A stretch of 40,450 nt of DNA from Acidimicrobiales bacterium (GTDB taxonomy: Bacteria; Actinomycetota; Acidimicrobiia; Acidimicrobiales; SZUA-35). Positions 6,180 through 8,240 of this stretch are shown here, piece after piece; position 1 is the stretch's first letter; every line of letters starts with the position of its first letter. Location: assembly GCA_024644005.1 (NCBI GenBank), contig JAHELU010000011.1:1-40450 (forward strand), read 5' to 3'. The position numbers were made by a program, and so were the translations under genes. Under the pieces are notes generated by a model. The model did no database searches, was not told the DNA's origin, and saw only the letters and a list, made by a program, of their open reading frames with translations.

Positions 6180-6869
6180 TCAGCCCTCCGGAACCTGGAT
6201 CAGGCGGACCCGATCCTGCGAGTCGGCGGCGACGACCCGGTCGGCCAGCTCGGTGGGCATCGTGAGGGAGATGAAGCGGGCCCGGCCCCCGGTCTCCACC
6301 ACCTCGACCACCTCGACGCTGTCCGCGGCGACGACGGTCTGATCGGCCTCCGAGACCAGGTTGGCTTCGGGGATGATCACCACCCGGACGCGGTCGCCGG
6401 GCCGGAGCGACAACGTCGGGAACTCGCCGGGGGCGAGCTCGAGCCCGACGATGCCGCTGCCGTCTGGGATCTGGGCCTTGTCGGCGAACTGATCGGCGGT
6501 TATCAGCGTGCCGATCTTCATGTCCGACAGCGCCACCTTGCCGATGACCAGCCCGGTCTCGCTGGTGCGTATGCCGAGAAGGGGCGCGTCGGTGGAGACG
6601 TCGTAGACGGTGAGATCACCGCTCTCGATGATCTCGCCACGCTGCACGTCCTCGCGCAGGGCGAGGTACCCGGTGCTCCTCGTGGACGTCGAATAGAACC
6701 ATGCGCCGGCCAGGGCGAACAACGCGACGAGGAAGGTCCCGACGAGGATCTCGGGAACGCGGCCCCGGCTCTTGGCGCTCTGCGCGGCCGCGAGATCGAA
6801 CGGCGATCCGCCCACGAGATCGTCCCGCCTCTCGCCCCGCACAGTCGCCGCCATGGTCTGCCCACCCAA
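6180..6869 (-). CDS. SAF domain-containing protein (CpaB/RcpC-like)
   Basis: TM near the N-terminus then STRSTGYLALREDVQRGEIIESGDLTVYDVSTDAPLLGI; SAF-type domain; first gene of the tad cluster. Confidence 0.72.
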   Translation of the reverse strand: MGGQTMAATVRGERRDDLVGGSPFDLAAAQSAKSRGRVPEILVGTFLVALFALAGAWFYSTSTRSTGYLALREDVQRGEIIESGDLTVYDVSTDAPLLGIRTSETGLVIGKVALSDMKIGTLITADQFADKAQIPDGSGIVGLELAPGEFPTLSLRPGDRVRVVIIPEANLVSEADQTVVAADSVEVVEVVETGGRARFISLTMPTELADRVVAADSQDRVRLIQVPEG

Positions 6870-6980
6870 CTACTCGATCAGCCCGTGGAGCCACCACCCT
6901 GACCCACCAGAGGTGCCCACGACCCGGAGGCCACCGCACCGCAACCGCTGCTTCCACCGATACTAAACCGAGACCTCATC

Positions 6981-7147
6981 CTAGTGTCCCGAGTCACAAG
7001 TCGTGCTCATATTTCGACGGCTCGTTTCGCCCCTCGCAGCGTCCTCGTCGTTGCCTCACGCTCACGAGTGAAGCTGCCTCCTGCGTCCTCGCGAGGGACG
7101 AAGTCGCTCGCCGAAATACTGAGCGAACTCATGACTCGGGACACTAG
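6981..7147. mobile_element. MITE-like palindromic element with 16-bp perfect terminal inverted repeats
   Basis: Left end CTAGTGTCCCGAGTCA (6981-6996) is the exact reverse complement of right end TGACTCGGGACACTAG (7132-7147); internal arms remain imperfectly complementary (GCGAGGG..CGAA..CGAAATA); no convincing ORF. Confidence 0.6.
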
Positions 7148-7258
7148 CCTCGATCTCGCGTAGCGAGCCCACGACCTGGTCCTTCACGGTTGCTGGGTCG
7201 CCGAGAGGTCAGGCCGCTCAACAGGGCAAACGCTTCCCGACGAAAGATCCGGGCTAGG

Positions 7259-7273
7259 AGGTCACAGTGACCT
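7259..7273. promoter_or_regulatory. 15-bp perfect palindrome AGGTCAC-A-GTGACCT, candidate operator
   Basis: Perfect 7-bp dyad in the intergenic region upstream of the tad locus. Confidence 0.35.
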
Positions 7274-7361
7274 TTACGAGGCCCGCCGACGGTGAAATTC
7301 GTTGCCGAGCCGGAGGCGAGGGGTTACCCGTCGGTAACAGGTTGGGCCGGCCCCGGTGACC

Positions 7362-7376
7362 GGACCCGGCGGGTCC
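7362..7376 (-). terminator. small GC hairpin just downstream of folD, possible terminator
   Basis: GGACCC-GGC-GGGTCC inverted repeat immediately after the folD stop; no clear U-tract. Confidence 0.35.
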
Positions 7377-7382
7377 AGACCA

Positions 7383-8240
7383 TCAGGGGGCCCGGTGCTC
7401 GGCGGCCCGAACCGTGTTCCGCAGCAGCATGGCCACGGTGGTGGGCCCGACCCCGCCCAATCGAGGCGTGATCCACGAGGCGACCTCGCCAACCGATTCG
7501 TCGACGTCCGGCAGCAGTCTCCGCCCCTCCCAGGTGATGCCACCGCTGACGACCACCGCCCCGGGCTTGACCATGTCGGGTTGGATGAAGTTGGGGACGC
7601 CGAGGGCTCCGACCAGGATGTCGGCGGCCCGGCTGTACGCAGCCAGATCGGGCACCCGGGAATGGACGACGGTGACCGCGGCATCGGCTCCCGGGCCCCG
7701 GTTGGACAGCAGCAGGGCCAGCGGCCGTCCGAGCGTCGGGCCCCGACCGACGACGACCACGTTCCGGCCGGCGACATCGATGCCGTAGTGGGTCAGCATC
7801 GCCTGGATGCCGGCCGGCGTGCAGGGGACCGGCCCCTCCTGCTGCAGCACCAGCTTGCCCAGGTTCATCGGGTGGAGCCCGTCGGCGTCCTTGGCCGGAT
7901 CCATCCGGGCCAGGGCCTCGCCGAAGTCGAAGCCGTCCGGCACCGGGTGCTGGATGAGATAACCATCGACCGCGGGATCGGCGTTGAACTCGTCGACGGC
8001 CGCCAACAACGCAGCCTGACCGGCACCGGCCGGGATCTCGGCGTTGAACGACCGCAGCCCGTTCTGCTGACAAGCCTCGTGCTTGCGCCTGACGTAGGAG
8101 GCGGACGGTCCGTCGTCGCCGACCAGGATGGTCCCGAGCCCGGGGGTCACTCCCGACCCCGCCAAGTCCTCCACTCGGGCCCTGACCTCGGCCAGCACCG
8201 AGTCCGCAACGGGCCCGCCCTCCAACAGCTGAGCAGTCAT
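7383..8240 (-). CDS. folD: bifunctional methylenetetrahydrofolate dehydrogenase/methenyltetrahydrofolate cyclohydrolase FolD
   Basis: 285 aa; SASYVRRKHEACQQNGLRS, DGYLIQHPVPDGFD, DADGLHPMNLGKL, VVGRGPTLGRPLALLL, RLGGVGPTTVAMLLRNTV. Confidence 0.95.
   Translation of the reverse strand: MTAQLLEGGPVADSVLAEVRARVEDLAGSGVTPGLGTILVGDDGPSASYVRRKHEACQQNGLRSFNAEIPAGAGQAALLAAVDEFNADPAVDGYLIQHPVPDGFDFGEALARMDPAKDADGLHPMNLGKLVLQQEGPVPCTPAGIQAMLTHYGIDVAGRNVVVVGRGPTLGRPLALLLSNRGPGADAAVTVVHSRVPDLAAYSRAADILVGALGVPNFIQPDMVKPGAVVVSGGITWEGRRLLPDVDESVGEVASWITPRLGGVGPTTVAMLLRNTVRAAEHRAP

Follow-up and report, generated by a model that had tools for sequence, protein, structure and literature searches.

The 167-bp palindrome at positions 6981-7147 of the window (the whole 40,450-nt stretch analysed here) is very probably, on comparison with related elements, a non-autonomous IS630/Tc1-mariner-type MITE that carries a strand-specific folded core with a history of its own. 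As comparison of its copies shows, the core is combined with transposase ends that vary from lineage to lineage, and its history is separate from theirs. The first-pass annotation, which recognised the palindrome, overlooked both this folded core and a second repeat at the element's right edge.

Boundaries, copies and target site

The element is bounded by perfect 16-bp terminal inverted repeats, CTAGTGTCCCGAGTCA at 6981-6996 and TGACTCGGGACACTAG at 7132-7147, an exact match that is read directly from both ends and agrees with the first-pass annotation. The same annotation proposed that some 40 bp of further interior sequence on each side pairs imperfectly and that the whole folds into one long hairpin; the imperfect pairing and the single hairpin stand, while the extent does not, as pairing spans the whole element, interrupted by a conserved internal loop and accompanied by an inner hairpin. 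Folded as single-stranded DNA, the 167 nt reach -49 kcal/mol, compared with -26.4 +/- 3.2 for shuffled sequences (z -7.1), and as minus-strand RNA they reach -100.9 kcal/mol (z -10.4). No long open reading frame is confined to 6981-7147, consistent with the earlier statement that no transposase is encoded. Under the IS630 convention, where the target is C-TA-G and the duplication is TA, the element proper is 161 bp and its terminal inverted repeat is GTGTCCCGAGTCA, giving the following features:

6982-6983, unstranded: left TA target duplication (within CTAG), from the ends as read and the context of IS630 elements of relatives
6984-7144, unstranded: MITE proper, family A, 161 bp, multi-copy at 98-99% identity
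6984-6996, plus strand: left terminal inverted repeat, GTGTCCCGAGTCA
7132-7144, minus strand: right terminal inverted repeat, GTGTCCCGAGTCA and then TGAGTTCGCTCAGTATTTCGG, matching IS630 ends
7145-7146, unstranded: right TA target duplication (within CTAG), from the ends as read

The source assembly, a 4.46-Mb draft that is 83% complete and comprises 314 contigs, contains 12 matches to the element, so that the several copies anticipated by the first-pass annotation do exist. Five are near-full-length, with an identity of 98-99% or better (contigs C89, C140, C30, C1 and C134). Of the others, some are truncated, some are interrupted where the contig stops (C42, C25), and three belong to a sister family, B. 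Family B is 90-92% identical over element positions 48-120 and differs in its ends (CTAGTGTCCTGTCAGG), which read GTGTCCTGTCAGG. Searching for CTAGTGTCCYGWSWSR with one mismatch allowed returned 30 sites, versus 2 with the reversed control, and contig C41 carries a 52-bp element with little beyond its two ends. The perfect 16-bp end CTAGTGTCCCGAGTCA also occurs by itself, unaccompanied by a second end in the vicinity, at two places in the source genome (L043 and L044, on C239 and C287).

Unoccupied sites are found in relatives. The interval between folD and the tad genes lacks the element in three of them (G011, G002 and G001), and two other copies agree: the L003 copy lies at the stop codon of a gene whose G004 ortholog has its TAG stop at the equivalent position, and the gene that adjoins L002 has an ortholog in G002 that ends adjacent to the equivalent position. 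The exact junctions at these sites are approximate because the relatives have diverged. The element is therefore neither single-copy and conserved in place nor lacking in empty sites and related terminal repeats, the observations that the first-pass annotation had set against its own reading. In one genome (G023:C208), two abutting copies have one CTAG between them, and because both copies share it, CTAG (or its TA) is the target rather than part of the element. The multiple copies, this abutment, the unoccupied sites and the IS630 ends of relatives together bear out the proposal of a target-site duplication, although duplications of TA and of CTAG look alike, the target being palindromic. Judged from its copies, the element is mobile or recently was.

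The element's first base is G, so that insertion into a stop codon within CTAG restores TAG and leaves the upstream gene intact. An in-frame TAG is found at 8 of 10 source-genome copies (by our own reading, L005 by eye), compared with 22 of 66 other CTAG sites, and in many members across the phylum a coding-like frame ends in TAG exactly at the element's edge. Special targeting of stop codons was rejected as an explanation, and we make no claim for it, because selection against insertions within genes predicts the same picture.

A second multi-copy repeat of about 112 bp occupies window positions 7144-7257, beginning exactly at the element's right CTAG. Its ends (CTAGCCTCGATCTTGC...AAGATCCGGGCTAG) are imperfectly inverted, it has 27 matches in the source genome including the window copy, most of them 90-96% identical, and it folds no better than shuffled sequence (z -0.5).

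The folded core

When families A and B are aligned with their relatives, the inner part is more conserved than the arms. This core consists of two helices flanking a purine-rich internal loop whose two sides read CAAGGACGCAGGACGA and GAGGACGAGGACGC, and its parts lie in the window as follows:

7020-7109, minus strand: conserved folded core, about 90 nt (models R1 and R2), with covariance-model matches phylum-wide
7080-7092, minus strand: invariant box 1, GCGAGGACGCAGG here, consensus CAAGGACGCAGG, on the 5' side of the internal loop
7039-7050, minus strand: invariant box 2, CGACGAGGACGC, on the 3' side of the internal loop
7053-7074, minus strand: inner hairpin P2, GCTTCAC...GTGAGGC, with compensatory changes among lineages
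7028-7100, minus strand: helix P1 (7091-7100 with 7028-7037), which closes the internal loop, from covariation and the RNA fold

In an alignment of 40 sequences, standard pairs fill 90.5% of pair cells, both partners have changed in 15 of 19 pairs, and covariation scores 0.41, compared with 0.05-0.14 for slid structures; these counts are not corrected for shared ancestry, and covariation in the arms may be due in part to template-switch correction of imperfect palindromes. The internal loop covaries as well. Among the 38 sequences in which the pattern can be read, 30 combine AAGG[A] with GAG[G]AC, the other 8 combine AAGG[C] with GAG[A]AC, and none is mixed (A/G versus C/A, Fisher 2e-8, not corrected for ancestry), and a second loop contact is G-C in 28, C-G in 7 and G-T in 3. 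Tandem sheared pairs of the G-A type would explain this loop covariation.

The two strands of the helices are not equivalent. Helix cells hold G-T 91 times versus A-C 8 times, and in 59 of 62 cases the core strand gives the more stable RNA, although this comparison is not fully independent, as the structure itself was defined on the strand tested. The excess of G-T together with the stability bias suggests that one strand is selected, most simply as RNA, and the core is thus likely an RNA. It resembles the structured RNAs of Rfam in its covarying helices and conserved loop, and none of the 4227 Rfam families gave a covariance-model match at the core. A 200-bp member in another genome (L017, G079, 1376-1576) has both boxes and carries two extra hairpins (GGCAACCCTTCGGGTTGC) within the core. 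A small peptide encoded in the core (AGGAGG followed by GTG on the minus strand) was considered and discarded, the frame being lost in the G079 lineage as judged by eye.

It is unlikely that the core is instead the unselected, leftover interior of an old MITE, its pairing kept solely by template-switch repair of the palindrome. Such repair, or the fitting of both ends to one transposase, would be expected to give the wide covariation of the arms and the terminal inverted repeats, and arm covariation alone is weak evidence of selection because palindromes can be repaired toward symmetry. Repair toward symmetry would, however, also erase the imperfect internal loop, which remains imperfect and yet is more conserved phylum-wide than any other part. 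The box covariation falls at a non-canonical position and has no exceptions, the helices show the G-T excess, and an unselected interior would not survive the several changes of ends that are described below.

Probable transposase partner and genomic setting

The ends of families A and B match those of IS630 elements in relatives, where TA is followed by GTGTCCCTAGTCATAAATTC and by GTGTCCTGTCAGG in the same C-TA-G context, a context shared by nearly all IS630 elements of these genomes. The matching elements are L119-L122, L177 and L182, and the ends read after TA include GTGTCCTGTCAGGTTGGTTCGC (L122), GTGTCGTGTCCGGTTGATCCGC (L120), GTGACCCGAGTCATAAGTTC (L177) and GTGTCCCTAGTCATAAATTCACTTAGTAAATGG (L182). 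Agreement is at 16-19 of 22 positions, where shuffled ends average about 11; with its continuation, the right terminal inverted repeat matches the L177R end at 18 of 22 positions and the L182 left end at 28 of 40. The element shares with IS630/Tc1-mariner insertion sequences these ends and the TA target in CTAG, and differs from them in lacking a transposase gene and in its length of about 161 bp, the insertion sequences being about 1.2 kb. No IS630 gene was detected in the source genome as represented by the 83%-complete draft of 314 contigs, in which several copies lie at contig ends.

ISY100, of the IS630 family, inserts at TA and duplicates it (PMC2170065), and the references listed there include a paper on TA in 5'-CTAG-3' (Tenzen and Ohtsubo 1991). 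The element is probably mobilised by IS630-type transposases in trans: the transposase would bind the element's ends, and cut-and-paste excision would be followed by insertion at TA within CTAG, with duplication of the TA. Being multi-copy and short, lacking a transposase, and having IS630-matching ends and unoccupied sites, the element deserves the MITE-like identity first given to it.

To the left of the element lie minus-strand tad-like genes (SAF/CpaB-like at 6180-6869, T2SSE, T2SSF and TadE), and its earlier placement upstream of a tad operon is therefore correct; the effect on pilus expression proposed there is conjectural. The strong hairpin, and the presence of copies between genes and at gene ends, could be taken to indicate a domesticated REP- or BOX-like regulatory or terminator repeat, spread by recombination rather than transposition. 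We consider this very unlikely, given the exact CTAG boundaries, the unoccupied sites, the near-identical copies at unrelated places and the IS630-matching ends, and given that neither a T-run terminator nor an orientation bias was seen. A simple scan of 6800-7450 found neither a sigma-70-like promoter nor an intrinsic terminator, and cores lie sense to the adjoining gene in 18 cases and antisense in 25 (p 0.36), an absence of orientation bias that lends no support to a role of the core in host mRNA. Mobilisation by an IS481-type element, a family that is common in relatives and likewise targets CTAG, can hardly be credited and was rejected, as IS481 ends are TGT...GGTTGTTGA, unlike the TGTCCCGAGTCA ends of the MITE, the 6-bp duplication that IS481 makes is absent at the MITE, and no IS481 or rve match was found in the source genome.

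The IS481 elements of the order (L070-L078) use NCTAGN as insertion site, produce 6-bp duplications and contain a conserved GGTTGTTGA or GGTTGGTGA inside their ends, and a CTAG target is therefore common to two unrelated transposase families here.

Separate histories of ends and core

Core and arms diverge differently depending on the comparison. Between the window element and family B of the same genome, the core is 88% identical and the outer arms 64%; between the window element and those of the distant genomes G419 and G413, identity is 67-70% in the core and 70-87% in the arms. Across the phylum, the core is joined to the ends GTGTCCCGAGTCA, GTGTCCTGTCAGG, GTGGTCYGTCGC and GTGCTCTGWCCA and to other TA-flanked types. 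The GTGTCC and GTGGTC types have matching counterparts among IS630 ends; for GTGCTCTGWCCA and some other types none was found. In two further genomes (G734 and G513), copies of the core end in sequences such as GAGCTTATCCCGGTAGG and are flanked by TTA; these flanks are seen at L300 and L309, and L300 has the ends GAGCTTATCC. Such ends look like those of IS5/IS1031 elements, which are marked by a GAG start and a 3-bp TNA duplication, and they may be of that type.

Several end sequences also occur on the same core even within the single genome G734 (L269, L270, L289, L296-L300 and L309, across G734, G513 and G803), and some copies in these three genomes have the TTA flanks typical of IS1031-like elements.

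The core is widely distributed. A covariance model built on ten sequences from one taxonomic family (R1) detected the core in 72 of the 395 class genomes searched, which represent 40 of 184 genera. Many of these 72 genomes have from several to more than 10 copies, and the best E-values outside the source genome are about 1e-13. A second model (R2), built on 40 sequences that R1 had found, detected it in 30 of 397 genomes of the phylum and 27 genera, other classes included; the R1 and R2 genome sets overlap, and some weak phylum matches are probably false, such as L286, apparently in an acidic coding repeat. Matches to the end sequences place the element group in Acidimicrobiia, and the phages, plasmids and viral contigs searched gave no match.

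It is hypothesized that the core, as a structured RNA or a strand-specific single-stranded DNA, aids the persistence of the element and hitchhikes on whichever transposases are available. A bolder reading, possible but tentative, is that of a phylum-wide parasite whose structured RNA core is functional, works in trans or within the transposition cycle, and has repeatedly captured new transposase ends (several types of IS630 and apparently IS5/IS1031), as a bacterial counterpart of CORE-SINEs. The CORE-SINEs of vertebrates have a conserved core with exchangeable ends fitted to different autonomous partners; they are RNA-copied eukaryotic retroelements, whereas the element here is a bacterial DNA element. 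Among bacterial repeats, Correia elements of Neisseria, RUP of S. pneumoniae and ERIC of enterobacteria are likewise short and gene-less, with a long imperfect hairpin and many intergenic copies, and Correia and RUP are associated with TA targets and IS630-type transposases. We know of no phylum-conserved core with changing ends in Correia, RUP or ERIC, which are likened to the element by description rather than by sequence. No description of such a core was found in the literature on bacterial MITEs that we covered, subscription journals being largely outside that coverage.

The interior of a MITE is usually regarded as meaningless, while here the interior is the conserved part and has outlived the ends. 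A review describes prokaryotic MITEs as decayed transposons (PMC10969869). A folded, covarying interior would make the core itself a selfish nucleic acid. The core would also be a candidate for a new, many-copied RNA family, and it allows the question of what a MITE gains from its inside to be asked directly.
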